Of a stretch of 64,000 nt of DNA, positions 45,769-62,848 are shown piece after piece. A program made the position numbers and the translations under genes. Every line of letters begins with the position of its first letter. Positions within the stretch are counted from its first letter, which is position 1. The notes under the pieces were generated by a model. The model did no database searches. It was not told the DNA's origin and saw only the letters and a program-made list of their open reading frames with translations. This DNA is from Actinoallomurus bryophytorum. GTDB lineage: Bacteria > Actinomycetota > Actinomycetes > Streptosporangiales > Streptosporangiaceae. The DNA is taken from the NCBI RefSeq assembly GCF_006716425.1, contig NZ_VFOZ01000001.1, forward strand, positions 2,356,001-2,420,000. Reading direction: 5' to 3'.

Positions 45769-46230
45769 TCACGGATTCGGCCGGTCGACGTTCCCCCGCC
45801 ATTCGCCCGTCTCACGACCACGTCGCTCGATGAACTCCTTGAACCGCTTGAGGTTCGTCTTGGCCTGGCGCTTGAGCAGGCCCGACTTGTCGGCGACGTT
45901 CTCGACGAACCCCTCGGGGTCGACGTCCATCTGCGTGGTGACCCGCGTGGTGTCCTCACCCGTACGGTGGAACGTGACCACGCCGGCGTGATCGGGCCCC
46001 TCGGTCGAGTGCCAGGCGACGCGTTCGTCGGGGATCTGCTCGGTGATCCGCGCGTCGAACTCACGCGTCACACCGGCCACTTTCACCCGCCAGTGCGTCA
46101 TGGTCTCAGTGACCTGGCTGACCTCTTCGACGCCCTCCATGAACTCCGGAAACTCCGCGAACTGAGTCCACTGGTTGTAGGCGGTATGGATCGGTACGTT
46201 GACGTCCACGCTCTCGGTAACGCTACTCAT
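45769..46230 (-). CDS. SRPBCC family protein
   Basis: Protein of 153 aa with a START/Bet v1-like fold of the polyketide cyclase type: SVTESVDVNVPIHTAYNQWT at the start (helix after first strand), EFPEFMEGVEEVSQV, then alternating strands, and a long C-terminal helix (NLKRFKEFIERRGRETG). The group binds hydrophobic ligands, and many actinobacterial copies are of unknown function. A GAGTGGAGG ribosome-binding site supports the ATG at 46230; the longer frame to 46302 is not conserved. Confidence 0.87.
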   Translation of the reverse strand: MSSVTESVDVNVPIHTAYNQWTQFAEFPEFMEGVEEVSQVTETMTHWRVKVAGVTREFDARITEQIPDERVAWHSTEGPDHAGVVTFHRTGEDTTRVTTQMDVDPEGFVENVADKSGLLKRQAKTNLKRFKEFIERRGRETGEWRGNVDRPNP

Positions 46231-46453
46231 CGCGTACCTCCACTCATCGTGTTCGGGTACATAGGTCGCGCTACCCGGGCTCAGTGGCGACAAACAAAGC
46301 ACCCGTATCCGGAACAGACCAGGTCAACGGCGGCCGTACGCGAAGCCGAAGCGCACGGCGGCTCTCGCCGAGACGGCCCGTCGGTGAATCTCCTGTTAAC
46401 CGTGAATAGGGCCCGAAGGCGGGGGTAGCGCCGATTGCGGACCTCGCCGGTCG

Positions 46454-46741
46454 GTGTCCACCGACGGCGTACGTGGCCAAGGGGTGGTAGCGATCGCAAT
46501 CCGCAGTCAGAGCAACGAGACCGTCGATGCCGTACGCGAGCGGCTGTGCGCACTCTTCCCGGACGACGCCGCGGAGGTGACCCGCCAGATCACCCTCGCG
46601 GTCGCCTGCGCCGAGCATCTCAACATCAAGGTGACGCCGGAGCTCCTGGAGAACCTCGTCACCGAACACCTGCGCGCCAAGGTCGCCGCGAAGCCGCCGC
46701 GGTTCCGCATGCCTCCCGCCATCCCGCTGGGGCGTGTCTGA
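46454..46741 (+). CDS. Small hypothetical helical protein
   Basis: Protein of about 95 aa (85 if GTG 46484 is used). The core (ETVDAVRERLCALFPDDAAE, then VTRQITLAVACAEHLNIKVT) is predicted all-helical, with one Cys in each half. I do not recognise a family. The gene is followed at once by a strong hairpin terminator, which supports it being real. Both candidate starts have weak ribosome-binding sites. Confidence 0.55.
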   Translation: MSTDGVRGQGVVAIAIRSQSNETVDAVRERLCALFPDDAAEVTRQITLAVACAEHLNIKVTPELLENLVTEHLRAKVAAKPPRFRMPPAIPLGRV

Positions 46742-46774
46742 CGGATCGCGGCCCTGGCGCGCGACGTCCGCCAC

Positions 46775-46804
46775 GTTCTCGCCGGTCCGCGGACCGGCGA
46801 GAAC
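46775..46804 (+). terminator. Hairpin terminator
   Basis: GTTCTCGCCGGTCC and its exact complement form 14-bp arms separated by only GC, 34 bp beyond the stop at 46741. Confidence 0.75.
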
Positions 46805-46871
46805 GATGTCTCCAGGCCGGGTAGCACCCCGGCGTCGTGGGGAGGGAAGCGAAGGACGGCGGGGAGGCCGG

Positions 46872-47351
46872 ATGAAGAACAGGATCATCGCCGGACTGCT
46901 GGCGGGCGGGGCCGGCACGACGGCGTTGAACGCCGTCACCTACGCCGACATGGCGTTGCGCGGTCGGCCCGCGAGCGAGATGCCCGAGCACCTGGTCGAG
47001 GCGATCACCGAGCGGGCCGGGATCGAGCCGGGCGACGAGGGGACCACACCAGGCCGCCGCCAGGGACTCGCCGGTCTCCTCGGCATCGCGACCGGCCTGG
47101 GCGTCGGCGTCGCGTACGGCCTGGCCGGCGGCGCGCACACACCGCGCAGGGCCGCGGCCGGGACCATCGCGCTGACCGTCGCCGCGTCGCTCGCCAGCGA
47201 CGCCCCGGCGACCGTCGCCGGTCTCACCGACCCGCGCACGTGGACGGCCGGGGACCTGCTCGCCGACCTCGTGCCGCATCTGGCCTACGGTGCCGTCACC
47301 GCGATCACCTACGACCGGTTGACCCGCCGGCACCGCCGGGGCCTTCGTTGA
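46872..47351 (+). CDS. Small predicted membrane protein (unknown)
   Basis: Protein of 159 aa with weakly hydrophobic, Ala/Gly-rich segments (IIAGLLAGGAGTTALNAVTY, LLGIATGLGVGVAYGLAGG and AAGTIALTVAASLASDAP). It resembles a recurring actinobacterial membrane protein (with 'ALNAVTYADMALRGRPAS') whose function is unknown. The ATG 46872 follows GGGGAGGCCGG. The longer frame from 46734 overlaps the upstream terminator and is unlikely. Confidence 0.75.
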   Translation: MKNRIIAGLLAGGAGTTALNAVTYADMALRGRPASEMPEHLVEAITERAGIEPGDEGTTPGRRQGLAGLLGIATGLGVGVAYGLAGGAHTPRRAAAGTIALTVAASLASDAPATVAGLTDPRTWTAGDLLADLVPHLAYGAVTAITYDRLTRRHRRGLR

Positions 47352-47610
47352 CGGTCTCCTCGCGGGCCGGCGAACCCGGCCGCCGCTCCTGGCCGACCTG
47401 CCACCGTCCAGTGTCTCCGGTGCCGGCTGGAGGATGCCCGGCGGCCGTCGGAGTAGTGCGCGGGAACGAGCCGGCCCGTGAGTGCGCGACGGTCGCGTCC
47501 CCGTGAGTCGTTCGTAGCTTTGACGACGTTCCGCTTGCGACCGACTTCATTGCGTAGCAGTATCTGAGTTCCCCAGACCTCCGAGATCGGCCCGGTCGAA
47601 AGAGGCGCGT

Positions 47611-48852
47611 GTGAAGACACCGGCGATACTGCAGGCTTTCAAGAACGACCTTCTCCCCGCGGACGCGCAGTTGCTGCAGGCGGACGACCCCGTCGAGATC
47701 GGTGGCCATCGGCTCACCGGCAGACTCAGATCCAGTGGCACGGGTGACGTCTACCTCGCACGCGGCCGTGGCGCCGGCCTTGTGGCGATCAAGACCACAC
47801 ACGCGGGGACCACCGAGCCGGGGCCCGTACGCGCCCGCCTGCGCGCGGAGGCCGCATGTTCGCGGCGGCTGCCCTCCTCCTGTACGACCCGGCTGCTCCA
47901 TGACGGCACGGCCGAGACGCCGCCCTTTCTCGTCAGCGAACACCTGGAGGGGCCATCGCTCGAGCGGGTCATCGACGTCAAGGGACCACTCCCCGGTGCG
48001 ATGGTGACGGCGCTGGCGACCGACCTCGCCCAGGCGCTCGAGACCATCCACGACGAGAAGATCGTGCATGGCAACCTCACGCCGGCCAACGTCCTCCTCA
48101 CCAAGGACGGCCTGCGTGTGATCGACTTCGGTGTCGCGCAGGAGATCTCCACCTCTGACGAGCCCGCCGAGATCGGGGCGGTCGCCGACAACCCCGGCTG
48201 GCTGGCGCCCGAGTTGCTCACCGGCGGACCCCCGGAGACCTCCTGCGACATCTTCGGCTGGGGCTGCCTCGTCACCTACGCCGCCACCGGGCACACCCCG
48301 TTCGGCGGGACCGGCTCCGGCTGTACGGCCCTCGATACCGGCGCCTTAGCCGGGCACCTACGCCGCATGGTCGACGCGGCGGTGGGAGAGGACCCCGCGG
48401 GCCGCCCCAGCGCGACCGAGCTCGCGAGCCGGCTCGCCGAGCCGCCCCCGGTGGATGACACCGAGGAGCCGCATGCCGTTCCCCCCGTACGCCGCCGCAG
48501 GATCAGGACGCGCGCCGCCGTGCCGGTGCTCGCGGCGCTCGTCGGGGCTCTGATCGCGGTCCCCACCGCCACCGAGCACTCCCCCGCGCCGCCGCCCACG
48601 GCACATGCCCCGAGCTCCCCGCCCAAGAAACCGGCGCCCAAGTCCAACACGGCCGCGATGTCGCTCCAGGGCGCGCCTCCCGCCCCTCCGCCCGCGCCGA
48701 AGACCACGTCCCGGCCGCAGAGCCAGCAGCGCTCGCGCCGCGGCACCATCTGGATGAGCTGCGGCGGCTGGTGCGCGATGCCCGACCCCAAGCCCCCGGC
48801 CAAGCGCCCGCGTCCGCCCGGCTGGCGGATCACCTGGGAGCCGGGCGGCTGA
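47611..48852 (+). CDS. Membrane protein kinase homologue, predicted pseudokinase
   Basis: Protein of 413 aa with a PknB-like kinase fold (about residues 33-275), a membrane segment (VPVLAALVGALIAVPTA) and a Pro-rich tail ending in MSCGGWCAMPDPKPP. The ATP lysine K61 (VAIK) and DFG (D172) remain, and APE is present as LAPELL. The catalytic loop reads HGNLTPAN instead of HRDLKPxN: the catalytic aspartate is N155 and the following lysine is a threonine. Phosphotransfer is therefore unlikely, and it may bind ATP and act as a scaffold or sensor. GTG 47611 has GAAAGAGG upstream. Confidence 0.85.
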   Translation: MKTPAILQAFKNDLLPADAQLLQADDPVEIGGHRLTGRLRSSGTGDVYLARGRGAGLVAIKTTHAGTTEPGPVRARLRAEAACSRRLPSSCTTRLLHDGTAETPPFLVSEHLEGPSLERVIDVKGPLPGAMVTALATDLAQALETIHDEKIVHGNLTPANVLLTKDGLRVIDFGVAQEISTSDEPAEIGAVADNPGWLAPELLTGGPPETSCDIFGWGCLVTYAATGHTPFGGTGSGCTALDTGALAGHLRRMVDAAVGEDPAGRPSATELASRLAEPPPVDDTEEPHAVPPVRRRRIRTRAAVPVLAALVGALIAVPTATEHSPAPPPTAHAPSSPPKKPAPKSNTAAMSLQGAPPAPPPAPKTTSRPQSQQRSRRGTIWMSCGGWCAMPDPKPPAKRPRPPGWRITWEPGG

Positions 48853-48856
48853 CCGC

Positions 48857-49720
48857 TCAGAGGACGATGTCGGCCAGGCGGTCGACCTCGTCGAGCCGCG
48901 CCAGGGTCGGGGTGAAGACGAGCTCGTTCATCCCGATGCCGGCGAACTCCCGGACGATGCCGCGGATCCGCTGCGGTGTACGCACGGCGCCGTCCGCGAT
49001 CGTCGCGGCGTGGTCGCCGGCGAAGGCGTAGTAGCTCCGCAGGTACTCATCGGACTCGGCGGCGAGCCGGTCGTCCGTGCCGAAGTACGCCAGTCCGGCC
49101 AGCCGCGGCTCTCCGGCCCGGCCCGCCTCCTGCCACGCCTTGGCGATCCTGCCCACCATGGGCTCGGCCCGAGCGGGCCCGCCGCCTGCTCCGGTCCAGC
49201 CGGCCGCCCAGCGCACGCTCCGGCGTACGGCGCGCTCGCTGTGGCCGCCGATCAGCAGGGGGATGTCCTCACCCGGCGGGCCGACCGGCCGTCGTTCGCC
49301 GTCGAAGTCGCCGACCGGCTCACCGCGGCAGGCGCGGTGCAGATACTCCAGCTGCCGGTCGAACGCCGCGCCTCGCCCCTTGAAGTCACGCTCGGCGGCG
49401 GCGTAGTCCGACTCACGGGCGCCGACGCCCAGGCCGAGGGTCAGCCGGCCGCCGGACAGTTGCGCGACGGTCATCGCGGTCTTCGCCAGGACCGCGTCGG
49501 CGTACGTCGGCCCGAGCACGGCGTTGGTCATCAGCCCGATCCGCGTGGTCGCGCCGGCGACGGCGGCCAGGGCGGTCAGCGAGTCATAGGAGGGGTAGCC
49601 GATCCGGCCGATCGTGGAGACGAACGCGAAGCCGCGTTGCTCGGCCCGCCGCGCCCACTCCAGAACCAGCGGGCCGTTCGTCCCCGGCACGGTGTTCGGG
49701 ACACCGATCCCGATCCGCAT
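48857..49720 (-). CDS. LLM class flavin/F420-dependent oxidoreductase
   Basis: Intact luciferase-like protein of 287 aa: MRIGIGVPNTVPGTNGPLVL start, ATTRIGLMTNAVLGPTYADA, QLSGGRLTLGLGVGARESDY and the C-terminal GMNELVFTPTLARLDEVDRLADI. It is a paralogue of the shortened gene at 20063 and shows what that copy has lost. Start ATG 49720 has GAAGGGAGAG. It ends 4 bp from the stop of the pseudokinase gene. Substrate unknown. Confidence 0.9.
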   Translation of the reverse strand: MRIGIGVPNTVPGTNGPLVLEWARRAEQRGFAFVSTIGRIGYPSYDSLTALAAVAGATTRIGLMTNAVLGPTYADAVLAKTAMTVAQLSGGRLTLGLGVGARESDYAAAERDFKGRGAAFDRQLEYLHRACRGEPVGDFDGERRPVGPPGEDIPLLIGGHSERAVRRSVRWAAGWTGAGGGPARAEPMVGRIAKAWQEAGRAGEPRLAGLAYFGTDDRLAAESDEYLRSYYAFAGDHAATIADGAVRTPQRIRGIVREFAGIGMNELVFTPTLARLDEVDRLADIVL

Positions 49721-50015
49721 GTTCTCTCCCTTCGGAGTTCGCGCCCTCGACGCTACCCCCGAGCTCACGTTCCATCCCTCGGCATCGCCGCGACGGGTGC
49801 ATCCGCCGCGTGGCGTACATTCCTTTTATTGCCATTCGTTTCCCCTTTATGGTCGGTCGGCGCGCATTAAGGGCGACCGATATTCGAGTAACTTTTCTCC
49901 GTCTACGGCGGACCATCGACTACGGGTTTGACGATCTTGTCTTACGCGTAGATAAACGTACAAACTTGCCATATGCGCAGCGCCGCGCTCAAACCGTGCT
50001 TGGGGGCTGATCGGC
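49721..50015. other. Promoter region of the fxsB operon
   Basis: About 295 bp with an AT-rich section from 49810 to 49975, unusual for this genome, directly before fxsB. TTGACG at 49928-49933 with AT-rich GATAAA at 49951-49956 is a possible promoter, though the -10 match is weak. No gene is seen. Confidence 0.4.
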
Positions 50016-51236
50016 GTGGCAGGCTGGACGAACGAGCGCGAATGGCCGATGGATCTCGACGTCGAAGGACTGCTCGAGGAAGGGTGGCGGCCGACACCGT
50101 TCCGGCAGTTCATCCTGAAGATCCACAGTCGCTGCAACCTGGCCTGCGACTACTGCTACATGTACGAAATGGCCGATCAGGGATGGCGTCTCCAACCGCG
50201 GTACATGGCGCCGGAGACCATCGACCGGATCGCGCGGCGCATCGCCGAACACGCCCATACTCACGGCCTGGCGGAGATCGATCTGATCCTGCACGGCGGC
50301 GAGCCGCTGCTCGCCGGCCCGGACCTCATCCGCCACGCGGTGACCGCGGTTCGCTCCGCGGCCGGCGCCGGGGTGACGGTGAACACCCACGTCCAGACCA
50401 ACGGGGTGCTCCTCGACCCGGAGTTCCTCCGGCTGTTCGACGAGCTGGACATACGAGTCGGCGTCAGCCTGGACGGGGACGAGCGCGGACACGACCTGCA
50501 CCGGCGCCATGCCGACGGGCGGGGCAGCCACACGGAGGTGCGAGCGGGCCTGCGCCGATTGACCGCGTACCGGCGCCTGTTCGGCGGGTTGCTGAGCACG
50601 ATCGACCTGCGCAACGACCCGGTCGCGACCTACGAGGCGCTGCTGGACTTCGAGCCGCCGGCGATCGACTTCCTGCTGCCGCACGGCAACTGGGACGAAC
50701 CGCCGCCCGGTCTGCTCCCCCACGATCCGGCGACCCCGTACGGGGACTGGCTCGTCGCCGTGTTCGACCGCTGGTACGGCGTCCCGGTGCGGGAGACCCG
50801 CGTACGGCTGTTCGGCGAGATCATCCGGCTGCTGCTGGGCGCGGACTCCCGTACCGAGTCGGTCGGCCTGTCCCCGGTCGCGATGGCCGTCGTGGAGACC
50901 GACGGAAGCATCGAGCAGGTCGACACGCTCAAGTCCGCCTACGAGGGTGCCGCCGCCACCGGACTGCACGTCACCCGTGACGCGTTCGACGCGGTGCTGC
51001 TGCTGCCGTCGACGGCCGCGCGGCAGATCGGCGGGCGGGCGCTGTCGGCACGGTGCGGCTCCTGCGAGATACGACGGATCTGCGGTGGTGGTCTCTACGC
51101 CCATCGGTACAGGTCCGGCAGCGGCTTCGCGAACCCGTCGGTCTACTGCGACGACCTGATCCGCCTCATCACCCATATCCGCACCGTCGTCGCGCGCGAC
51201 CTGGGCGATCGGCTGAACGGGAGAGGAGCTCGATGA
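50016..51236 (+). CDS. fxsB: Radical SAM/SPASM peptide maturase FxsB
   Basis: Radical SAM enzyme of 406 aa. The SAM-binding 4Fe-4S cluster is held by C40, C44 and C47 (SRCNLACDYCYMYE). The barrel shows the GGEPLL motif and QTNGVLL. A SPASM-like C-terminal region holds C347, C350, C356 and C378 (CGSCEIRRICGGG then YCDD) for auxiliary clusters. The family (FxsB) is the maturase of FxSxx-COOH peptides and belongs to the cyclophane-forming rSAM enzymes, which join an aromatic ring to a beta-carbon two residues on. GTG 50016 has a GGGGG site; ATG 50049 is an alternative. Its stop overlaps the next gene's ATG. Confidence 0.93.
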   Translation: MAGWTNEREWPMDLDVEGLLEEGWRPTPFRQFILKIHSRCNLACDYCYMYEMADQGWRLQPRYMAPETIDRIARRIAEHAHTHGLAEIDLILHGGEPLLAGPDLIRHAVTAVRSAAGAGVTVNTHVQTNGVLLDPEFLRLFDELDIRVGVSLDGDERGHDLHRRHADGRGSHTEVRAGLRRLTAYRRLFGGLLSTIDLRNDPVATYEALLDFEPPAIDFLLPHGNWDEPPPGLLPHDPATPYGDWLVAVFDRWYGVPVRETRVRLFGEIIRLLLGADSRTESVGLSPVAMAVVETDGSIEQVDTLKSAYEGAAATGLHVTRDAFDAVLLLPSTAARQIGGRALSARCGSCEIRRICGGGLYAHRYRSGSGFANPSVYCDDLIRLITHIRTVVARDLGDRLNGRGAR

Positions 51237-52516
51237 GACGGCACTGGATACCCGGAAAGGTCTTTTCCGCCCTGGCCGCGGGAAGCGGCGGCGCGCACGC
51301 GATCGGCCACCTCCAGGCGGCCCAGTACAGCAAGCGTCTGCTCCTTCTGCGCGGCGTACGCGACGCGGCCAGGGAGGAGGGGCCGGTACGTGCCAGGAGG
51401 GCGCGGCAGGCGTTCGCGCTCCTGGCGGAGATCCAGAACGAGGCCCCGGACGCGGTCGAGGCCGTCCTGCGACACCCGGCGGTGGGCGCGTGGGCACAGG
51501 AGACCCTGCGGGGTTCCGGGGACACCGACGGGCTCACCTCACTCGCCGCCGCGGCGGTGGTGCGGGCCGGCTTCCCGCGCCCCGTGGAGGTCGCGGTACG
51601 CGGTGGCGGGGTCGTCCTGCCGTCCCTCGGCCGCGCCCTGGTCCCCGCGGCCGACGCGCCGGGCACCGCCACCGTACGGTCGGGGCCGGGCGGTGGCGAG
51701 GTGACCGCCTCCGGTGTGCGAGTGCGGATCCCCGCCGACCCGCATCGTGACGCACCCGACTGGGAGGGACTGCGGCGGCTGGAGGCCGAGTATCACGGCA
51801 TGGCACTGCGGGTGCTGCTGGACGACGTCGACCCGTACCGGCTGCCCGGCGCCGAGACCGCGGCCTCGCGCCCGCGTGAGGAGGAGCTCGAGGCGTGGCG
51901 GTCGATGCTGCGCCGCGCCTGGCGGCTTCTGGTCCGCTGGCACTGGACGACGGCCGAGGAGGTCGCGGCCGCCATCACGGTCCTGACGCCGCTGACCCCA
52001 CCGGAGCAGGGACTGAGAAGCGCCACCTCGACCGAGACGTTCGGCGCCATCGGCATGTCCACCCCACCGGACGAGCACGCGCTGGCGGTCAGCCTGGCGC
52101 ACGAGGCCCAGCACGCGAAGCTGGGCGCCCTGGCCGACGTCGTGTCACTGACGAGGCCGGACGACGGGAGCCTGTACTACGCGCCGTGGAGAGACGATCC
52201 CCGGCCGGTCACGGGCCTGCTCCATGGCGTCTACGCCCACCTCGGGGTGGCCGGCTACTGGCGTCGCCAGCGAGTCCACGAGCGAGGCGACGCCGCGCTG
52301 CGCGCACACACGGAGTTCGCCCGCTGGCGTGACGCGTCCGTGCTCGCGGCTCACACGCTGTCGGCGAGCGGCCGGCTCACCACCGAAGGCGAGCTGTTCG
52401 TCGCCGACATGACCCGTACGCTCCAGGGCTGGTGCCGCGAGCCGGTGCCCGCGTCCGCCCTGAACCAGGCCCGCACCACGGCCGAACGCCACCGGGAACG
52501 CTGGGCGCGGCGCTGA
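51233..52516 (+). CDS. HExxH motif peptide-modification protein (aKG-HExxH hydroxylase type)
   Basis: Protein of 427 aa coupled to fxsB by ATGA overlap with GGAGAGGAG upstream. The motif HEAQH lies at residues 290-294 within DEHALAVSLAHEAQHAKLGA, and a second histidine-rich helix follows in GLLHGVYAHLGVAGYW. The family is found beside radical SAM maturases and RiPP precursors. Relatives have been described as alpha-ketoglutarate-dependent peptide beta-hydroxylases rather than proteases, though that is family knowledge. It may hydroxylate FxsA before or after cyclophane formation. Confidence 0.88.
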   Translation: MRRHWIPGKVFSALAAGSGGAHAIGHLQAAQYSKRLLLLRGVRDAAREEGPVRARRARQAFALLAEIQNEAPDAVEAVLRHPAVGAWAQETLRGSGDTDGLTSLAAAAVVRAGFPRPVEVAVRGGGVVLPSLGRALVPAADAPGTATVRSGPGGGEVTASGVRVRIPADPHRDAPDWEGLRRLEAEYHGMALRVLLDDVDPYRLPGAETAASRPREEELEAWRSMLRRAWRLLVRWHWTTAEEVAAAITVLTPLTPPEQGLRSATSTETFGAIGMSTPPDEHALAVSLAHEAQHAKLGALADVVSLTRPDDGSLYYAPWRDDPRPVTGLLHGVYAHLGVAGYWRRQRVHERGDAALRAHTEFARWRDASVLAAHTLSASGRLTTEGELFVADMTRTLQGWCREPVPASALNQARTTAERHRERWARR

Positions 52517-52519
52517 AGC

Positions 52520-55099
52520 TCAGATCGGCGGCGGGTCGAAGTCGAAGTCGAGATGACGCCCGTCGAGGGCGACGACCGCGTCGGGGTGGTTGAGGCTCAG
52601 CACCCTGGCATAGGAGTCGAGGGTGCTCTCGAAGAGCCGCGTCCCCTCTTCCTCCTCACCATCCGCCCGCATGTCCGCGGACAGGTTGGCGGCACACGCC
52701 AGGGCCATCGGGTGCTCGTCGCCGAGCAGCTTGCGCAGCCGGCGGAGCGTGCCCTGCCCCAGACGCCGCGCGGACTCCAGGTCCCCGAGGGCGGCCAGGT
52801 CACTGGCCAGGTTGGTGGCCACGGTCAGGGAGTAGAGGTGGTCGCGGCCGAGTCTGGCCTCAAGTCCCGCGAGTGCGGTCTCGTTGAGGCCACGGGCACG
52901 GCTCGCCTCTCCGGTGACCCGCAGCAGGAGGGCGAGATTGCAGGCGCAGCCGTGGTAGTAAGGGTGGTCGCCCCCGTAGACCTTCTCGTAGAGGTCGAGC
53001 GCCTCTGCCGCCAGGTCGAGAGCTTTCCCGCCGTCTCCCATGCTGCGCCGGATGTTGGCCAGGCACATCGCGGACGCAAGCGAGTCGGGGTGCTCCAAGC
53101 CGAACATCCGGATGTAGCGTCCGTGGACGTCCTCGGCGATCTGCAGCGACTCCTCGTGTTTCCCGAAGCGGCGGAGGGCTATCGCCAGGTCCTTGGCCGT
53201 TCGCAGCGTCCAGGGATGCTCGGCTCCCAGCTCGTCCACTCCGAAGGAGTACGCGTCCTCTCCCACGTCGCATGACTCCCGATAGTCGCCGCACAGGCGG
53301 ACGGCTCGGGCCAGACCACTCCAGGAGCTCAGGATGTTCGCCTTACCGACACCACCGCCACCTGGCCACATGTTCCTGTAGCACTTCTCGTGCAGGTCAC
53401 GCGCGGCAACGTAGTCGCTGACCAGGCCGAGGTCGACGGCCAGGTTGTTCATCGCCCGTAGTGTGCGGGCGTCGTGTGCGCCGAACTCGTCCTCGTGCCG
53501 GCGGAAGGAATCCTCGTCGTGCTCGCGCGCCGCGACGAAATCACCGGTCGCCCGCAGGTCCGCACCGATGCTGTTGACGAGCTCGAGCAACTCGGCTCGA
53601 TAGGCGGGTTCGGGGCTCTCGACCTGCCGCATCTGGGCGAGCAATTCCTGGTTGAGCTTGTAGGCCTCCGCGTAGCGGCCGAGTTCGCGAATGATGATGC
53701 CGCGGTTACGGCGCGCCTCCAGGACGTCTGGATCAAGCTCCCCCGACTGAGCCTTCCACTGGTCCTCGAAGATCCCGATGAACCTCTCGGCCGAGCGGTA
53801 GTCACCGGATACGTACAGGTATCTCACGAAGCCGAGAGCAAGACGGCGTATGTCGCGATCTTGGCTCTTCGCCACCTCTGACGGCTCGATATGGGCAAGA
53901 AGCTCGGAGTATCTGGTCCAGTGCGTCGTGTCATCCGGCCCCTCGGGCGTGGCACCGAGGAGCAGAACATGGACGTCGTCGCGCATGCGCAGCTGCTCCT
54001 TCGAGGACAGGCCGTCCTTCAGCAGCGCCTGAATCAGCCGGTGCACCTGGATGGTGCGTCCCTGCGTATTGATCTTCGCGAGCGCGTAGCGCCCCAGCTC
54101 CCCGATGGTCCGGCTGAGCCTGATCGGATCACCGATCAGGCTCGTCATCTCCTCGCTCAGCCCCGGTGCGGGCTGGCCGAACACGGCACGAGGAATGGGC
54201 TCCGGACCAAAGAAGGCACAACAGTGAAGCAGCGCTATCGCCTCGGGGAACTTCTCACTCAGCTTGGTCACCGAGAGTCCCCATGCGGCCGTCATCGAAA
54301 CCGGATACTCGCTCGGCTTTCCCTGGGCCAGTAGTTGGCTGGTCTGCTCGCGCAGCAGCCGGAGATACTCCTCCACCGTCATACCGGTCTCGGCCTGCAG
54401 TGCGCCCGCCTGCTCGAGGGCAAGGGGAAGGTCTCCGAGCGCGTCGGCCAAATCGTCGGCGTCGGCGGGGCTCATGGTGCCCGGAACCCGCTTGTCCAAG
54501 AACTCAGTGCTCTCCTGGCGCGAGAACACATCGATCTGCACGGTGTCGACGACGCCGATCCAGCGGTTGTTGCGCGAGGTGATCAGGACATGCCCGGGGC
54601 CGTGCGGGATGAACTCACTGAGGTCCTCCGGCTGGTCGGCGTTGTCGAAAATGAGCAGCCACTTGTCGTAAGGATCGCCCAGCCGCAATTTGTTGATCAC
54701 CGCACTCGCCGCGTCCTCGATGCCCGTGGCCGTGGCCGGTGGCAGGCCAAGGTGCGGAGCCAGACTCGCCAGCGTCGAACGCACGAGAATCGTCTGGTCG
54801 GAGGGGATCCACCAGATCAGGTCGTAATCGCCCCGGTATCGATGGGCGTATTCCGCCGCGGCCTGTGTCTTACCCACGCCCCCCTGGCCCTGGAACGCAT
54901 GCGGTGCCTGCGACGTCTTCGACGCCTGAGGTTCTGGCGGTTTCGGCGGCACTACCGCTGTGACATCGCCGGCGATGCTCTGCCTGAGCTTGGCCAACAG
55001 GTCCTCACGGCCGGTGAAATTCATATTGCGTGGCGGGATTCTTCCCCAGACATCGGGCGTGCGACCCCCAGGACTTCCTCTGTACGCCGAAGTCGCCAC
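52520..55099 (-). CDS. FxSxx-COOH system NB-ARC/TPR protein (FxsT-like)
   Basis: Protein of 859 aa. It carries an NB-ARC-type STAND ATPase with a FTGREDLLAKL entry motif, Walker A GQGGVGKT (residues 71-78), Walker B LLIFDNAD and the LPLALEQAGAL motif. From about residue 430 to the end, repeated TPR-like helices alternate (for example LGAEHPWTLRTAKDLAIALR and LGRDHLYSLTVATNLASDLA). This is the TPR component regularly found with FxsA/FxsB. It converges on the HExxH gene with 3 bp between stops and diverges from fxsA. It probably senses or regulates rather than modifies the peptide. Confidence 0.9.
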   Translation of the reverse strand: MATSAYRGSPGGRTPDVWGRIPPRNMNFTGREDLLAKLRQSIAGDVTAVVPPKPPEPQASKTSQAPHAFQGQGGVGKTQAAAEYAHRYRGDYDLIWWIPSDQTILVRSTLASLAPHLGLPPATATGIEDAASAVINKLRLGDPYDKWLLIFDNADQPEDLSEFIPHGPGHVLITSRNNRWIGVVDTVQIDVFSRQESTEFLDKRVPGTMSPADADDLADALGDLPLALEQAGALQAETGMTVEEYLRLLREQTSQLLAQGKPSEYPVSMTAAWGLSVTKLSEKFPEAIALLHCCAFFGPEPIPRAVFGQPAPGLSEEMTSLIGDPIRLSRTIGELGRYALAKINTQGRTIQVHRLIQALLKDGLSSKEQLRMRDDVHVLLLGATPEGPDDTTHWTRYSELLAHIEPSEVAKSQDRDIRRLALGFVRYLYVSGDYRSAERFIGIFEDQWKAQSGELDPDVLEARRNRGIIIRELGRYAEAYKLNQELLAQMRQVESPEPAYRAELLELVNSIGADLRATGDFVAAREHDEDSFRRHEDEFGAHDARTLRAMNNLAVDLGLVSDYVAARDLHEKCYRNMWPGGGGVGKANILSSWSGLARAVRLCGDYRESCDVGEDAYSFGVDELGAEHPWTLRTAKDLAIALRRFGKHEESLQIAEDVHGRYIRMFGLEHPDSLASAMCLANIRRSMGDGGKALDLAAEALDLYEKVYGGDHPYYHGCACNLALLLRVTGEASRARGLNETALAGLEARLGRDHLYSLTVATNLASDLAALGDLESARRLGQGTLRRLRKLLGDEHPMALACAANLSADMRADGEEEEGTRLFESTLDSYARVLSLNHPDAVVALDGRHLDFDFDPPPI

Positions 55100-55126
55100 G
55101 GCCCCGCCTCCGCGTCCCTATCAACC

Positions 55127-55155
55127 GATCTATCGTGCCGACATACTATGCTCAA
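55127..55155 (-). promoter_or_regulatory. Candidate promoter of the NB-ARC/TPR gene
   Basis: On the minus strand TTGAGC (55155-55150) and TAGATC (55132-55127) are separated by 17 bp and lie 27 bp before the ATG at 55099. Reasonable sigma-70-like spacing; unverified. Confidence 0.4.
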
Positions 55156-55405
55156 TTTTTGGATCATGATGGATTCGGCCTACCAGAAGTCGACCTCCAG
55201 TAGGCCGTAATTAGTCCGTCATTGACGGAAACCAACTGTCCACGTTTCCAGGCTACGCAAGGCCTGATCAGCATGGTAAAACTTGTCCACGGACTATGTA
55301 CCGCACGACGGGCAGGTAGTTCGCACGGTTTGGTCAGCTTCGCGAGTGCCGGGAATGGGAATCCACTCATTCGCGAGCGCTCGACAGCCGGCACTAGGAG
55401 GGCGC

Positions 55406-55573
55406 ATGCACGGCGAGATCCACTTCGGCGGCGAACTGATCGAACTCAGCGGACTCTCGCTGCGGGAAGTGGGCGATCTCGACGATTCCCCACTGGCTCT
55501 GGAGTTGCGTGAACTGCTCATCGGAGCCGGGAGCGGCCACGGGCTCACCGCCGGATTCCAGTCTAAAATCTGA
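55406..55573 (+). CDS. fxsA: FxSxx-COOH RiPP precursor peptide FxsA
   Basis: Precursor peptide of 55 aa. The C-terminus FQSKI-COOH fits F-x-S-x-x-end (F51, S53). The leader has the family pattern LSGLSLREVGDLDDSPLALE followed by LRELL and a Gly/Ser-rich hinge (GAGSGHGLTAG). FxsB is expected to cross-link F51 to S53, giving a three-residue cyclophane at the end of the peptide. An excellent GGAGGG site lies 5-6 nt before ATG 55406, so the longer frame from 55283 is rejected. Small enough to be missed by most annotation. Confidence 0.9.
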   Translation: MHGEIHFGGELIELSGLSLREVGDLDDSPLALELRELLIGAGSGHGLTAGFQSKI

Positions 55574-55778
55574 GGCACCCGCGACTCGAAGTGCGTCACG
55601 GAAGGGACGGCATTGTGAGACCTCCGTCCTCTCTGCTGCGATTTCGGTCGACCGTCTACCTTTTCAATCACCAACCGAAATGGGCGACCGGACACCCGAC
55701 GAAAGCCGGACCCCCCTCCCGGATGAATAACCGGCCTCACCCGCCTTGCTCTAGTTTCCGGTCTTCGAAGGAAGCCTT

Positions 55779-57734
55779 ATGAGCACGGCCGAAATATCCG
55801 GACCCTATCCAGGCATTCGTCCTTTCACGGAGAACGACCAACGCCGGTTCTTCGGGCGGGACGACGCGGCCCGGGAAGTCGCGGGGCTCTGGCGCCGAAA
55901 TCGGATCACCGTGCTGTACGGCGACTCCGGAGTGGGCAAGACCTCCCTGATGCGCGCCGGCGTGGTGCCGGCAATAGCACCGGCCACGGCCAACGTCCTA
56001 CCGGTGGGTCGCGTGTCACGCGCGTCCGCCTTCCCTACGGCGGCGCTTCCCGAACAGAATCCCTACACGCTCGCTCTCCTGTCGTCCTGGTCACCGAGCG
56101 AGTCCCCGACACGAGTTTCCGGCATGGCGATCGGCACCTTTCTGCGACGTCAGGAGCGCCCCGACCGGTACGGCGCCCGGCTGCCCACGTTGGTCGCGAT
56201 CGACCAGGCCGAACGACTCTTCCGTGACACCGACCCGGACCCCTGTACGCAGTTCTTCGACGAACTGATCGAGGCCCTCGGACGGCGGCCGGACACCCAC
56301 CTGCTTCTCGCCCTCCGCGAGGATCACCTCGACGCGCTCCAGAGCGTCAAGGCGCTCAAGGACGAACCGTACGCCCAGTTCGCGTTGCCACCCCTCGATC
56401 AGCAAGGGGCACTCGAGGCCATCGAACGGCCTCTGGACGACACTGATCGCTCCTTCGCCCCAGGAGTCGCCGCCAAGATCATCGGCGACCTGCGTGGGGC
56501 CGTGGGCCCTGGCGGGGACGACGCCGCCGACACCATCGAACCCGTGCTCCTTCAGGTGATGTGCCGCCGGATGTGGGACGAACTCCCCGACGGTGTCCGG
56601 ACCATCTCCCACGGCATGGTCCCCGATGTCGGGGACACCCTCAGCGCCTTCTGTTCGGAGGTCCTCGCGACGGTGGCGGCCGATCACGACAGACGGCCGG
56701 GCGACCTCCTCTCCTGGCTGCGCGGCGCCTTCCTCACCACGCCCGCCCGAGCGGCGGCGGTGCGCGAGGGACCGGACGACACGAGAAGAATGGCCAACTC
56801 CGTGGTGCACGCCATGGAGGACCAGCATCTGATCAGGGCCCGGTGGCGGGACGGGTCCCGATGGTACGAGCTGCAGCGCCCACAGCTGAGCGGTCCCATC
56901 GCGCGGCTGGAGGGAGCACGCTGGCCCATCCGTACATCGGACGCCGCGTCACAACTACGCGCCGCGGAGACCGCGCTGGCCCAAGGCGACACGGCACTCG
57001 CCCGCCGGCACGCCAAGGAAGCGGTGGAGGCCTGCGGCCCCGGGGAAATACGAGTCCGGGCGGAGGCCGAGTCCGTACTGGGCAATATCGCGCACGAAGA
57101 ACGCGACCTGAAGGGCGCCACCGACCATTACCGCACGGCGACGAGCCTGTTCGAGGCGCTACAGGACACGGCGGCCGTCGGCCGCCTGCTCTCCGCCGTG
57201 GGGCGCCTGCAACTCGCTCAGGGGCAACGCGCCGAGGCGGTCGGGCAGTTGGAGGCCGCGGTGGGCCGGATGCCGAACGACCCGACGGTCCAGACTGGGC
57301 TGGGACAGGCGCTGTGGGACGCCGGGCAGCCGAAGGCCGCACTCGCGGTGCTCGACGGCGTACTGCGGCGTGACGGAGACACCCCCGAAGCGCTGAGCAC
57401 GCGCGGCGAGATTCTCGCTGACCTGGGTGACGCGGAGTCGGCCTTACGCGACCTGGACCGTATCGACCGCAGGAGCCGACCTTCGGCCCGCGCGGCACGA
57501 GCCCTGGCGCTGGCGACCCTGGCCCGTGTGGACGCGGCCAGACTCGAACTCGACGACACCGTGACCAAGGCCGCCCACAGTGGCCCAGTCCTCTTCCGCG
57601 TGGCCCAGGTTCAGCGGCTCATCGGCGACATCCACGCCGCCGCCGAGCTGGCGGCCCGCGCACTCGCCGCCGAGAACCCGCCTCTCCCGCCACACCAACG
57701 TGTCGAGGCCACCCGGATATCACGCCAAATGTGA
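55779..57734 (+). CDS. nSTAND1 ATPase with TPR domain, adjacent to fxsA
   Basis: Protein of 651 aa. The entry motif is GPYPGIRPFTENDQRRFFGR, Walker A is GDSGVGKT (residues 48-55) and Walker B is LVAIDQAERLF (138-148). From about residue 395 helical TPR repeats follow (ETALAQGDTALARRHAKEA, GLGQALWDAGQPKAALAVLD). It starts 205 bp after fxsA in the same direction and overlaps the next gene by 4 bp. It is not a standard named member of the Fxs set, and I infer that it acts with the Fxs peptide, as an ATP-driven sensor or switch. Confidence 0.87.
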   Translation: MSTAEISGPYPGIRPFTENDQRRFFGRDDAAREVAGLWRRNRITVLYGDSGVGKTSLMRAGVVPAIAPATANVLPVGRVSRASAFPTAALPEQNPYTLALLSSWSPSESPTRVSGMAIGTFLRRQERPDRYGARLPTLVAIDQAERLFRDTDPDPCTQFFDELIEALGRRPDTHLLLALREDHLDALQSVKALKDEPYAQFALPPLDQQGALEAIERPLDDTDRSFAPGVAAKIIGDLRGAVGPGGDDAADTIEPVLLQVMCRRMWDELPDGVRTISHGMVPDVGDTLSAFCSEVLATVAADHDRRPGDLLSWLRGAFLTTPARAAAVREGPDDTRRMANSVVHAMEDQHLIRARWRDGSRWYELQRPQLSGPIARLEGARWPIRTSDAASQLRAAETALAQGDTALARRHAKEAVEACGPGEIRVRAEAESVLGNIAHEERDLKGATDHYRTATSLFEALQDTAAVGRLLSAVGRLQLAQGQRAEAVGQLEAAVGRMPNDPTVQTGLGQALWDAGQPKAALAVLDGVLRRDGDTPEALSTRGEILADLGDAESALRDLDRIDRRSRPSARAARALALATLARVDAARLELDDTVTKAAHSGPVLFRVAQVQRLIGDIHAAAELAARALAAENPPLPPHQRVEATRISRQM

Positions 57735-58303
57735 CGTGCGACGCTATACCGACAGTCAATCTCCCGCATCATTACGTCATGCAGGACACCGCGCTGGTCG
57801 CGCTCTTCACCGGTGGCTCGACGGCGGTCGCCGCCGCGCTCGGCGCCGGCTGGCAGGTGCTCGGGGAGAGCCTCCGCTCGCGGCACGAGCGGCAACGGCA
57901 GAATGAAGCACGAGAGGCCGAACGCCAAGAGGCCCACGAAAGCCGGCTCCGGCGAGAGCTCGCACGTACCCGGTCCGCCGTGCTCCTGCTCGCGGTGACC
58001 GTACGCATCTGCATGGACATCCGGCGGGACCAGCACGCTCGTCTCAACGACCAGGACCTGGTGGAGATGCTGGGCCGCGCCCGGGACTGCTACTACGAGG
58101 CGAACGTGGAGATCGAGGCCCTCCGGGCACTCGCCAACGGCGGCGAGCAGGCTCTGACGGCGATCGAAGCGCTTATCTCCGTCGTCGCGGAGGCCTTTTC
58201 CCACGTACGGTCGGCGAGCAGTGAACAGGGCGACCCCGACCAGGTCGAGACGCTCATCCGCTCCGCGCTCCGCGAGGTGAGCGAGGCCGTCCGATCAGTG
58301 TGA
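57731..58303 (+). CDS. Small membrane-anchored coiled-coil protein downstream of the STAND ATPase
   Basis: Protein of 190 aa (174 from ATG 57779). One N-terminal membrane segment (ALVALFTGGSTAVAAALGAGW) is followed by a highly charged coiled coil (RHERQRQNEAREAERQEAH) and a helical domain ending in REVSEAVRSV. GTG 57731 overlaps the stop of the STAND gene, suggesting coupling. I do not recognise a family. An effector or anchor for the STAND protein is a possible role (inference). Its end overlaps the convergent MFS gene by 50 bp. Confidence 0.75.
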   Translation: MTCDAIPTVNLPHHYVMQDTALVALFTGGSTAVAAALGAGWQVLGESLRSRHERQRQNEAREAERQEAHESRLRRELARTRSAVLLLAVTVRICMDIRRDQHARLNDQDLVEMLGRARDCYYEANVEIEALRALANGGEQALTAIEALISVVAEAFSHVRSASSEQGDPDQVETLIRSALREVSEAVRSV

Positions 58304-59525
58304 AGGACGTGACGATCACGGCGAGCACGCCGATCAGACCGGCGATCGCGATCGCGGTCCGCCTGGCCCCGAACGCGGCGATCGCATAGCCGCCGCAGAA
58401 CGTGCCGAACGGGACGGCGCCGAGCGACAGGAAGCGGTTCGCGCCGGCGACGCGTCCGAGCAGCTCGTACGGGACCGCACGAGCCTGGTAGGTGTCCAGC
58501 GCGATGTTCATGCGCGCCCCCATGTAGCCGACGCCGCCCCAGCCGAAAAGCCAGATCAGCGGGTTCGAGGACACCGCGACGAGCCCGATCAGTAAGGCCC
58601 AGCTCCAGGCGCACCTGATGGTCACCGCCATCAGGCTCTTCTCTTTCAGTTCCGCCTGGGCGTACACAGTGCCGATCACGCCGCCGAGGCCTGGGGCCGC
58701 GAGCAGGGTGCCGATCAGGATCGTGGACAGTTGCTGCTGCCTTCCCAGCACGACCAGGAGCACGACGACGGCCTGGAAGAAGAAGTTCGTGACCGTACAG
58801 ACCGTGAGCGCCGTTCGGAGGAGCCGGTCCGTCCAGAGCCGGGCCAGGCCTTCCTTGAGCTCCCCGGCGAGTGCCGTGACTCCCCGGCGTCGGGTGTCCG
58901 GATCAGGCCGGAAGGGCTCGGCCCGCATGTGCTTGAGCGCTCCCACGGAGACGAAGCAGGAGACCGCGTCGACGGCGAAGGGCAGGAAGCGGCCGAAACT
59001 GTAGAGGAGGCCACCGAGCGGGCGTCCCAGCAGGAGGGCGACGTGGCTGCGGGCCTCGTTCTTGGCCACCGCGTCAGCCAGGTCCTCGGGGAGGACGATC
59101 TTCGGTATGGCACTGACCTCGGCCACGTTGTAGAACGTCATGCAGATGCCGCCGACCGCGGCGGCGATCGTCAGCAGCAGGATCGAAGGCGCGCCGGCGG
59201 CCACGGATATGGCCAGCACTATCCCGACCGTGCCGCGGAGGGACTGACTTACCAGCATGATTCGCCGTCGGTCCAGGCGATCGACCACGACCCCTGCCGG
59301 CAGCAGCAACAGCAGACCGGGCAGTGTCGCCGCGGCGGCCAACCGGCCGGCATCGATCGGCGATCCGGTCAAGGCGAGCGCGAGCAGGGGGCAGGCCACG
59401 GTGGCGCTCATGCTGCCGAGCAGCGAGACCGCCGAACCACCCCAGAGAAGCTTGAAGTCACGCTGCCAGAGGGTCTCGCGGTAAGGGGCCGGCTCAATGG
59501 CGGAGACCGTGGGGGAATGGGTCAT
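58254..59525 (-). CDS. MFS transporter (macrolide-efflux-like)
   Basis: Exporter of 423 aa with about 12 membrane segments, of the MFS_3 / enterobactin-exporter-like group: WQRDFKLLWGGSAVSLLGSM at the start, LPAGVVVDRLDRRRIMLVSQ (motif A) and a central loop. Its substrate is unknown. Being adjacent to the Fxs block it could export the mature peptide, but it reads from the opposite strand and its tail overlaps the small membrane protein, so the link is weak. Confidence 0.88.
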   Translation of the reverse strand: MTHSPTVSAIEPAPYRETLWQRDFKLLWGGSAVSLLGSMSATVACPLLALALTGSPIDAGRLAAAATLPGLLLLLPAGVVVDRLDRRRIMLVSQSLRGTVGIVLAISVAAGAPSILLLTIAAAVGGICMTFYNVAEVSAIPKIVLPEDLADAVAKNEARSHVALLLGRPLGGLLYSFGRFLPFAVDAVSCFVSVGALKHMRAEPFRPDPDTRRRGVTALAGELKEGLARLWTDRLLRTALTVCTVTNFFFQAVVVLLVVLGRQQQLSTILIGTLLAAPGLGGVIGTVYAQAELKEKSLMAVTIRCAWSWALLIGLVAVSSNPLIWLFGWGGVGYMGARMNIALDTYQARAVPYELLGRVAGANRFLSLGAVPFGTFCGGYAIAAFGARRTAIAIAGLIGVLAVIVTSFTLIGRPRSPRGARSG

Positions 59526-59939
59526 CGACCTCGCCTCCCCGTAACGACCACGAGACCTACATCCGTGTGAAATCGAGATTTATGACGGCCCGAATCGAAG
59601 CCGACTCGACGGAGCAGACAACGCATCGCGTACGGGGTGCCGACGACAACAGACGTGGAGAAGTTACCCCTGTGAAAGGACGCGACGCCAGGGGAACGTA
59701 GATACTGGTCATATTTTTGCGCACCCTGCATGCAGGTGGTGGCATTTCTAGGGCAATTCGTCGCGTGAGACGTCCTTCAACCACATATACGAGCGGCCGA
59801 ACCCTCGCCGTACACGGCCGTTCCGCCGTCTCAGGCCCCGCGACGCCTCGCGCCCGCGGCCTCCCATAAAGCGGCTTCACCAGGCATTCCTCTCTCCCTC
59901 TGCGCCCGATATGTTGCCTTGAAGGCCTAAAAAGGGGGG
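59526..59939. other. Divergent intergenic region
   Basis: About 415 bp between the MFS gene and the alditol oxidase, AT-richer around 59700-59760. It contains a perfect 12-bp palindrome CCTGCATGCAGG (59725-59736), a possible operator. No gene is seen. Confidence 0.4.
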
Positions 59940-61190
59940 ATGCCAATGACCGGCAGATTGACGAACTGGGCGGGGAGCGTCACGTTCCAGGCGGATGAGG
60001 TGCGGCGGCCGGCTTCGCTGGAGCAACTGCGACGCCTGGTCGCCGACAGCACCAAGGTGCGTGCGCTCGGCAGCGGACATTCGTTCAACGACATAGCGGA
60101 CACACCACACACACTGGTCTCGCTCGCGGAGATGCCGGAGCTCTTCGAGGTCGACACCGCCGCCGCCGCGGTCAAGGTCGGCGCCAGTCTGCGGTACGCC
60201 GAGGTGGGCCGGAGGCTCCATGAGCAAGGTCACGCCCTGCACAACCTGGCCTCGCTCCCGCACATCTCGGTGGCCGGTTCCGTCGCCACGGCGACGCACG
60301 GCTCGGGGGACGCCAACAAGAACCTCGCCACGGCGGTCAGGGCGCTGGAGATGGTCACCGCCGACGGCGACCTCGTCTCGCTGGACCGTGAGGACGTCGA
60401 CTTCGGCGGCGCCGTCGTCGGGCTCGGCGCGCTCGGCATCGTCGTCAACCTGACGCTCGACATCATGCCCGCCTACGACCTGCGGCAGTACGTCTACGAA
60501 GGGCTGCCCCTGGAGGCCCTCGACGATCACTTCGACGACGTCTTCGGCGGCGCGTACAGCGTCAGCCTGTTCACGAGCTGGAGCGGCCCGAAGATCGACC
60601 AGGTCTGGGTCAAGACCAAGGGCGACCGGTCGGCGGAGGACTGGTTCACGGCTCACCCGGCCGACGGCCCGCGGCACCCCGTACCCGGCATCGACGCCGC
60701 CCCGTGTACCCAGCAGCTCGGTGTGCCCGGCCCCTGGTTCGAACGGCTGCCGCACTTCCGGCCGGAGTTCACCCCCAGCAGCGGCGTCGAGCTCCAGTCC
60801 GAGTACTTCGTGCCCCGACGGCACGGGGTCGCCGCCCTGAACGCGGTGGACGCGATCCGTGACAAGGTCGCGCCGGTCCTGCAGATCTCCGAGATCCGCA
60901 CCATCGCGGCCGACGACCTGTGGATGAGCACCGCGTACGAGCAGGACAGCATGGCCCTGCACTTCACCTGGGTCAAGGACATGGACGGCGTCCTGCCGGT
61001 ACTCGGGCTCCTCGAAGAGAGCCTCGCGCCGTACGGAGCCAGGCCGCACTGGGGGAAGCTCTTCACCACCGTGCCCGAGGGACTGCGGGACCGCTACCCG
61101 CGGCTGGAGGACTTCCACGCGCTCGTGCGGCACTACGACCCGCGCGGGACGTTCACCAACGACTTCCTGGACCGGCGCCTCTTCGGTTGA
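59940..61190 (+). CDS. aldO: Alditol oxidase (FAD-dependent, VAO family)
   Basis: Flavoenzyme of 416 aa that oxidises the terminal CHOH of sugar alcohols such as xylitol or sorbitol with O2. It follows the Streptomyces AldO pattern along its length: NWAGSVTFQADEVRRP start, GSGHSFNDIAD (the histidine that binds FAD covalently), ASLPHISVAGSVATATHGSG, EIRTIAADDLW with the substrate-binding Glu/Arg, and RPHWGKLFT near the end. ATG 59940 is given; ATG 59946 may be better spaced to AAGGGGGG. No transporter or kinase for polyols is adjacent. Confidence 0.9.
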   Translation: MPMTGRLTNWAGSVTFQADEVRRPASLEQLRRLVADSTKVRALGSGHSFNDIADTPHTLVSLAEMPELFEVDTAAAAVKVGASLRYAEVGRRLHEQGHALHNLASLPHISVAGSVATATHGSGDANKNLATAVRALEMVTADGDLVSLDREDVDFGGAVVGLGALGIVVNLTLDIMPAYDLRQYVYEGLPLEALDDHFDDVFGGAYSVSLFTSWSGPKIDQVWVKTKGDRSAEDWFTAHPADGPRHPVPGIDAAPCTQQLGVPGPWFERLPHFRPEFTPSSGVELQSEYFVPRRHGVAALNAVDAIRDKVAPVLQISEIRTIAADDLWMSTAYEQDSMALHFTWVKDMDGVLPVLGLLEESLAPYGARPHWGKLFTTVPEGLRDRYPRLEDFHALVRHYDPRGTFTNDFLDRRLFG

Positions 61191-61198
61191 GACCCGGA

Positions 61199-61519
61199 CT
61201 AGACCGCCATCTCTCCCAGCTCTGACCAGTCGTCCTGCGGCAGCTTCATGTTCACGATCAGCGGTGTCGCGGCCAGGTGCGGCGGAAGCGTGCGCTGTGC
61301 CGTCCTGAAGTGCTCCGACTGTACGTGCGCGGCGCCCGCGTCGTCGTCGCGGAACGCCTCGACGAGTACGTACTCGGTCGGGTCGTCCAGGCCGCGGGAC
61401 CACTCGAACCACAGGCATCCCGGCTCCGCGCGGGTCGCCTCGGTGAAGTCACGGGCGATCTCCGGCCACCGGTCGGCGTCCTGCGGCCGGACTCGGAACT
61501 TGGCGGTGATGAAGATCAT
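61199..61519 (-). CDS. ABM-fold putative quinol monooxygenase
   Basis: Protein of 106 aa with the dimeric alpha+beta barrel (ABM) fold: MIFITAKFRVRPQDADRWPE, EPGCLWFEWSRGLDDPTEYV, then EAFRDDDAGAAHVQSEHFR. Such small cofactor-free oxygenases act on quinols or polyketide phenols, or serve in detoxification. It converges with the alditol oxidase, 9 bp between stops, and is divergent from the aldo/keto reductase. Confidence 0.88.
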   Translation of the reverse strand: MIFITAKFRVRPQDADRWPEIARDFTEATRAEPGCLWFEWSRGLDDPTEYVLVEAFRDDDAGAAHVQSEHFRTAQRTLPPHLAATPLIVNMKLPQDDWSELGEMAV

Positions 61520-61589
61520 GACGCTCTCCCTCGCTCGCGACGGCGACGGCTCACAGGGCCACCTACGGACCGCCGAAGTACCTGCTGTC

Positions 61590-61595
61590 TAGGAT
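61590..61595 (+). promoter_or_regulatory. -10 element of a leaderless aldo/keto reductase transcript
   Basis: TAGGAT ends 6 nt before the ATG at 61602 and there is no ribosome-binding site. The transcript probably starts at or next to the A of ATG. Confidence 0.55.
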
Positions 61596-61601
61596 CAAAG
61601 C

Positions 61602-62654: not shown

Positions 62655-62802
62655 CGACGGCCAAACCTTAGACCTCCCCGGCCATGCCCTCAGGCGGCGC
62701 CGGGGAGACCGCCCGCTGCGGCCGGCCGCGGCATCTTGGCAGCCGGAGTACCGGCCGGTCAGAGCTCGCCGACGATGCCGTCCCTGGGCTGGCCGACCGG
62801 CG

Positions 62803-62839: not shown

Positions 62840-62848
62840 GAGCGTCCG

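Follow-up and report, generated by a model that had tools for sequence, protein, structure and literature searches.

A second STAND ATPase and its clade-bound partner genes in an FxSxx peptide locus of Actinoallomurus bryophytorum

Why a locus that makes one small modified peptide carries two STAND ATPases (signal transduction ATPases with numerous domains), one on either side of the peptide gene, is the question raised by a region in the genome of Actinoallomurus bryophytorum (9.47 Mb). The window analyzed herein is a stretch of 64,000 nucleotides (positions 2356001-2420000 of contig NZ_VFOZ01000001.1, hereafter C1), and the part under study, at positions 50016-59525 of the window, comprises an Fxs locus for a ribosomally synthesized and post-translationally modified peptide (RiPP), with the maturase FxsB, an HExxH hydroxylase, the STAND ATPase FxsT, and the precursor FxsA, followed by a second STAND ATPase with tetratricopeptide repeats (TPRs), designated nSTAND1-TPR, the membrane protein TMcc, and a transporter of the major facilitator superfamily (MFS). 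This arrangement is conserved, wider, and more modular than it appeared in an earlier, sequence-only reading, and represents a variation on a RiPP module whose link to conflict is already published; its mechanism is what we infer. In the explanation that we prefer, with a probability of roughly 0.45, an Fxs triceptide cassette feeds a two-ATPase STAND circuit acting in conflict or cell fate, which would end in a clade-bound effector, TMcc in the present locus.

Linkage of the added genes to the Fxs locus

The nSTAND1-TPR gene (55779..57734, plus strand) was recognized by PF20703 (8.2e-37, 128 bits against a gathering threshold of 27) and by TPR models. Residues G51, G53, K54, and S56 of its Walker A loop were invariant in 11 aligned nSTAND1 rows, and an AlphaFold2 model with a predicted local distance difference test (pLDDT) score of 85 consisted of the NTPase, a helix-strand segment, possibly of the winged-helix type, and a TPR superhelix; the best Foldseek match of this model was the STAND-TPR protein 6mfv (E 2.5e-10). 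In a survey of 200 genomes of the family, including that of the window, an nSTAND1-TPR profile applied with E up to 1e-30 gave 135 matches in 88 genomes. FxsB was encoded within 15 kb of 103 of the 117 strong matches (400 bits or more) and FxsT within the same distance of 10 more, giving 113 of 117, while 7 of the 18 weak matches were near FxsB and 10 near FxsT, giving 17 of 18. Among the four strong matches that were left over, one (L027) has an FxsT gene cut at the contig end, another (L138) has FxsT once its surroundings are fetched, and the remaining pair start no more than 460 bases from the beginning of a contig.

The sequence-only reading had assigned the second STAND ATPase and the membrane protein to the locus, and would have regarded them as chance neighbours if their homologues were regularly found without fxs genes. 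These counts, together with the TMcc and SIR2-like genes that adjoin nSTAND1-TPR in 12 of 12 and 68 of 73 cases, respectively (see below), bear out that assignment and show that these genes do not stand next to the Fxs locus by chance. We found no evidence in favor of a chance association, to which we attach next to no probability, even though the profile was made from linked copies, which biases it towards linkage; linkage extended to its weak matches too. In a class survey of 394 genomes, nSTAND1-TPR matches at 1e-60 were confined to two families, and 21 of the 24 matches in the second family had FxsB within 15 kb, one had FxsT only, and two had neither, as counted by eye. Among the FxsB genes listed for the reverse check (at least 150), 72 of 150 had no nSTAND1-TPR within 16 kb; therefore, nSTAND1-TPR marks a large subset of Fxs loci and not all of them. 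Only one plasmid record matched, that of Nonomuraea gerenzanensis at 11.85 Mb, and, thus, there is no sign of carriage on ordinary plasmids. Two nSTAND1-TPR genes were present at a single locus in four cases (L115, L120, L160, and L097).

Judged by sequence, positions 50016-55573 comprise a RiPP locus of the Fxs (FxSxx) type with predicted genes for FxsB, the HExxH hydroxylase, FxsT, and a precursor ending in FQSKI. The fxsB gene (50016..51236, plus strand), for a radical SAM/SPASM cyclophane-forming peptide maturase, matched TIGR04269 above its curated cut-off (469 against 370 bits, E 7.4e-141) and has the CxxxCxxC motif CNLACDYC. The gene for the aKG-HExxH peptide beta-hydroxylase (51233..52516, plus strand; TIGR04267, 170 bits, cut-off 40; motif HEAQH) lies in an open reading frame (ORF) that opens at 51053; its start is probably the ATG at 51233, which overlaps the fxsB stop, and a 4-nt overlap of the two genes was also found at another locus (L019). 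The fxsT gene (52520..55099, minus strand), which is divergent from fxsA and encodes an NB-ARC-like STAND ATPase with TPRs, matched the FxSxx_TPR model NF040586 over its full length (984 bits, cut-off 300), and its NB-ARC match of 20.8 bits is below the Pfam cut-off of 23.5. The 55-aa precursor FxsA (55406..55573, plus strand) ends in AGFQSKI, with the F codon at 55556-55558, and its match to TIGR04268 (20.8 bits, E 3.3e-4) is below the cut-off of 28; the ribosome site AGGAGGG in front of it is common to the window and its nearest relative, the FxsA of which ends in FQAYI. The closest relative of the genome in the sample (G176) belongs to the same genus.

FxsB was found in 122 of the 200 family genomes. 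In a classification of 116 distinct nSTAND1 genes, for which part of the 135 profile matches was fetched, fxsT was upstream and divergent in 113 loci, and an FxsA-kind peptide occupied the same position in 100, of which 90 were found by profile and 10 were picked by eye. FxsT and nSTAND1-TPR thus form a nearly constant pair with an FxsA-like peptide usually between them. The name FxSxx is not strict for these peptides because the third residue is often other than S: 35 of the 90 profile-found peptides end in F-x-S-x-x, and among the 62 peptides of relatives ending in F-x-?-x-x, this residue was S in 35, A in 15, N in 8, Q in 3, and D in 1. Two further fxs loci are present in the genome of A. 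bryophytorum: one (L016, C1:4928000-4947500) includes nSTAND1-TPR and TMb, and the other (L017, C1:4872000-4891500) has FxsB, FxSxx_TPR, and a second FxSxx_TPR-like gene. No HExxH or nSTAND1 gene was found at L017, which is outside the 116.

Each part listed in the sequence-only reading, namely, FxsB, the HExxH protein, the NB-ARC/TPR protein, the 55-aa peptide ending in FQSKI, the STAND-TPR protein, and the membrane protein, was present. That reading had also noted the absence of a TIR-like FxsC, and the NCBIfam scan agreed with it: none of the 15 window ORFs scanned between 44.2 and 62.6 kb matched an FxsC-like model. Three of these ORFs (49010-49870, 59877-61418, and 61563-62585) probably do not represent genes, and the scan covered neither of the likely genes at 59940-61190 and 61602-62654. 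Upstream of fxsB is a serine/threonine kinase-like gene (47611-48852), the best NCBIfam match of which was AfsK, far below the cut-off; it was not seen in the conserved set. Elsewhere in the window, a 1306-aa protein (11820-15740, minus strand) has a helix-turn-helix-like start by eye and no NCBIfam match.

Partner genes of nSTAND1-TPR and the transporter

The partner gene next to nSTAND1-TPR differs among loci, and the tally for the 116 was SIR2 at 63, TMcc at 12, TMb at 13, TM2 alone at 2, VMAP at 8, and none of these at 18. The SIR2-like gene is directly upstream of nSTAND1-TPR, and in 52 of the 63 loci its stop overlaps the nSTAND1 frame as ATGA or GTGA; of all SIR2 profile matches, 68 of 73 were within 500 nt of nSTAND1-TPR, and in the second family SIR2 preceded nSTAND1-TPR in four of four loci fetched (of 24). 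Planobispora siamensis (L209) offers an example of the SIR2 type. Four SIR2 proteins were scanned and matched SIR2_2 (PF13289) at 1.6e-28 to 6.8e-26, with ThsA as the best PADLOC model in each. The GxG, TTNYD, and HLHG residues, which we take to be the NAD+-site and catalytic positions, were invariant in 16 of 16 aligned proteins, and, judged from this alignment, the SIR2-like partners keep the NADase residues intact. At 1e-40, the profile of these SIR2 proteins matched nothing in the genome of A. bryophytorum.

In the window, the partner is TMcc (57731..58303, plus strand), the GTG start of which overlaps the nSTAND1 stop by 4 nt, with an alternative ATG at 57779. A search with the single protein found TMcc in 11 of the 200 family genomes, including that of the window, and a profile found 12, all adjoining nSTAND1-TPR; the order divergent FxsT, nSTAND1-TPR, TMcc was kept in the 20-kb surroundings of each copy, including one locus that is devoid of FxsB, the peptide, and the MFS gene (L022) and one that ends at the contig end (L027). 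A single membrane segment is predicted in TMcc, along with a helical bundle: in an AlphaFold2 model of a 180-aa copy (pLDDT 85), a first helix of 86 residues (8-93), which opens with the hydrophobic segment, is followed by three others (97-124, 129-150, and 159-178). A remote similarity connects TMcc with TMb (hhalign 90%, E 1.5e-6). A search of a contig collection with the membrane protein alone returned nothing and that with the nSTAND1 alignment returned named loci; Nonomuraea thailandensis (L206) has a window-type set that includes TMcc and the MFS gene. The membrane protein family TM2, which has a conserved soluble part (examples at L110:7697-8554, L115:1173-1994, and L127:13381-14247), accompanied nSTAND1 at 12 of the 116 loci, including 10 that also have SIR2; neither Pfam nor PADLOC gave a match in two copies scanned, nor did NCBIfam in one copy.

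SIR2 did not occur with TMcc, TMb, or VMAP at any of the 116 loci, including the 63 with SIR2 and the 25 with TMcc or TMb. In a tree built from the NTPase parts of all 116, partner labels changed 13 times against a mean of 49.8 in shuffles; the labels are clade-bound, which argues that partners have long been kept, and the fast swapping of partner genes was rejected.

The MFS_3-type transporter gene (58254..59525, minus strand; PF05977, 6.2e-26), which is convergent with TMcc, belongs to the cassette as a frequent member: an MFS gene was within 4 kb in 63 of the 116 nSTAND1 loci and 11 of the 12 TMcc loci, and was convergent in those 11. STAND-TPR proteins of actinomycetes are often regulators. 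A secreted triceptide signal or antibiotic, made by FxsB and the HExxH protein and exported by the MFS transporter, is thus a possible although doubtful alternative, with the STAND-TPR proteins as regulators or for self-protection and SIR2, TMcc, and TMb as regulatory or immunity partners, and the two tailoring enzymes speak for it as well. However, an MFS gene was present in just one of 13 TMb loci, no Pfam DNA-binding domain was matched in FxsT or nSTAND1-TPR, no leader peptidase was found among the window proteins scanned in NCBIfam and Pfam, and a SIR2 protein with all NADase-type residues would be a strange companion in a cluster that makes a product. In view of the SIR2 partners of relatives, a role in conflict or signaling is more probable than a cluster for a product alone, and in this respect the earlier suggestion that the peptide is a ligand or guarded signal has gained ground.

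Divergence of the peptide and a possible circuit

That suggestion also held that both STAND proteins bind the modified peptide, which was assessed by mirror-tree tests limited to the 77 and 46 loci in which every needed gene was found. Given FxsB and nSTAND1, FxsA followed FxsT with a partial r of 0.43 over 77 loci (0 of 200 permutations) and of 0.44 in a separate run (0 of 500), in which nSTAND1 was represented by its first 420 residues only. For the 38 SIR2 loci the value was 0.51, and for the 22 membrane-type loci it was 0.40 (0 of 200 in both sets); that for FxsA and FxsB was 0.05 (30 of 200). SIR2 followed nSTAND1 (partial r 0.43, 0 of 200) and, to a lesser extent, FxsB (0.16, 2 of 200); its value with FxsT was 0.10 (26 of 200). 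The 22 TMcc/TMb loci, the kind to which that of the window belongs, do not allow a clean split because FxsA followed the NTPase part of nSTAND1 (0.31, 0 of 200); the corresponding value for its TPRs was 0.08 (48 of 200). We read these results, which derive from sequence divergence, as pointing to two sub-modules, one made up of FxsA and FxsT and the other of nSTAND1-TPR and its partner. Since fxsA adjoins fxsT and SIR2 adjoins nSTAND1, linkage can account for part of this tracking. Binding of the peptide by FxsT is consistent with the tests, whereas binding by both STAND proteins is at most half supported: the NTPase part of nSTAND1 was followed only in the clade of the window and its TPRs never.

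The circuit that we prefer may operate as follows. FxsB and the HExxH protein would, by their kind, cross-link and hydroxylate a short core of FxsA, and the modified core would be read mainly by FxsT through its NB-ARC-TPR architecture. FxsT may then pass its state to nSTAND1-TPR or restrain it, and, once activated, nSTAND1-TPR would oligomerize and trigger its partner, leading to the loss of NAD+ through SIR2 in relatives and possibly to a membrane disturbance through TMcc in the present locus. The MFS pump may export the peptide or relieve its level, and the likely purpose of the whole is defence or a controlled cell fate in mycelial actinomycetes. An improbable variant, which resembles the nucleotide-binding leucine-rich repeat (NLR) receptors, is an alarm in which cross-linked FxsA, as an inherent ligand or decoy, would hold FxsT and nSTAND1-TPR inactive until interference by an invader with the peptide or with its synthesis releases nSTAND1-TPR onto its clade-specific effector, the NAD+-consuming SIR2 in most partner-bearing relatives and TMcc in loci of the kind in the window.

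Several observations weigh against the two-ATPase circuit. Over the 77 loci, FxsA did not follow the nSTAND1 TPRs (partial r -0.10, 189 of 200), and co-variation of FxsA with nSTAND1 was rejected as unsupported there and in the 38 SIR2 loci; the adjacency of fxsA and fxsT may itself be what the tracking of FxsT reflects. FxsA was not found by profile or by eye in 16 of the 116 loci, and at 18 loci no partner gene of the kinds sought was present. Because only three changes among the SIR2, membrane, and VMAP labels occur on the tree, the mutual exclusivity of partners amounts to a few independent events. The fold of TMcc had no significant match in the PDB by Foldseek, the best being the ligand domain of a chemoreceptor at E 0.019, and its designation as an effector hence comes from position alone. 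Genome G184, which is listed as 100% complete, keeps FxsT, nSTAND1, and TMcc (L022, on contig C25), although FxsB was not matched anywhere in it; in G122 and G110, FxsT occurs with weak nSTAND1 matches and without FxsB, and G001 has a 700-bit nSTAND1 match with neither FxsB nor FxsT. In a PADLOC scan of eight window ORFs, the sole matches were viperin models, to FxsB. A secreted product would likewise account for the MFS pump and the tailoring enzymes.

In the open literature searched, we found no stated biological role for the widespread Fxs peptides, and the second STAND ATPase with the SIR2 locked to it in relatives offers a concrete and testable one. If this is true, an immune-type ATPase would have a RiPP as its ligand inside the cell, and the search for a secreted Fxs product may be looking in the wrong place.

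Relation to known systems

FxSxx peptides have been described with a zincin-like protein, a radical SAM enzyme, and an AP-ATPase-TPR, linked to VMAP and also standalone, by Kaur et al. (2020; PMC7159879), in whose account the peptide was suggested to be a toxin or an amplifying signal. The zincin-like protein was read there as a peptidase, whereas NCBIfam describes the HExxH domain as a hydroxylase. On this basis, the present locus may be an accessory of VMAP-type conflict systems, with the peptide as a toxin or amplifier and nSTAND1-TPR as a spare AP-ATPase-like effector, and the eight VMAP loci fall with 12 TMcc rows and five others in one starred set on the tree. We consider this unlikely: no VMAP profile match was found at window positions 46001-64000 or within 6 kb in 108 of the 116 loci, that of the window included, nSTAND1-TPR has partner genes of its own in most loci, and neither "SIR2" nor "MFS" appears in the main text of PMC7159879. 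At one locus (L092), an EAD2-VMAP protein (11865-13337) and a very large FxSxx_TPR-like protein (13123-18537) come after the MFS gene, which resembles the layout of VMAP conflict systems.

Among the records listed from the open literature, subscription papers and supplements being outside its scope, none described nSTAND1 or SIR2 at Fxs loci; nSTAND1 is named in conflict systems in PMC8195603, and NAD+ hydrolysis by Avs5 is described in PMC12931631. Compared with the FxSxx-COOH system of NCBIfam (TIGR04269, TIGR04268, TIGR04267, and NF040586), the locus has the same FxsB, HExxH hydroxylase, FxsA-like peptide, and FxSxx_TPR protein, and adds nSTAND1-TPR, a membrane protein, and the MFS gene. 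The VMAP ternary systems use the same peptide, maturase, HExxH-type protein, and AP-ATPase-TPR as a conflict module (PMC7159879), whereas loci of the present kind have nSTAND1-TPR with SIR2 or membrane partners. Avs5 (AVAST type 5; PMC12931631) likewise combines a STAND ATPase with repeats and SIR2, as in the relatives, and the nSTAND1-TPR model matched the SIR2-STAND defence protein EfAvs5 (PDB 9jap) at E 5.3e-6, rank 40; however, the SIR2 of relatives is a separate, mostly overlapping gene and one of a type that the genome of the window lacks, a RiPP pathway is attached, and PADLOC gave no match for nSTAND1-TPR. The SIR2 partners resemble ThsA of Thoeris in their best PADLOC matches, whereas the gene adjoining them is a STAND-TPR. 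The link between FxSxx peptides and AP-ATPases is already in print, and the nSTAND1, SIR2, and TMcc part of Fxs loci is, to judge from the literature searched, new here.

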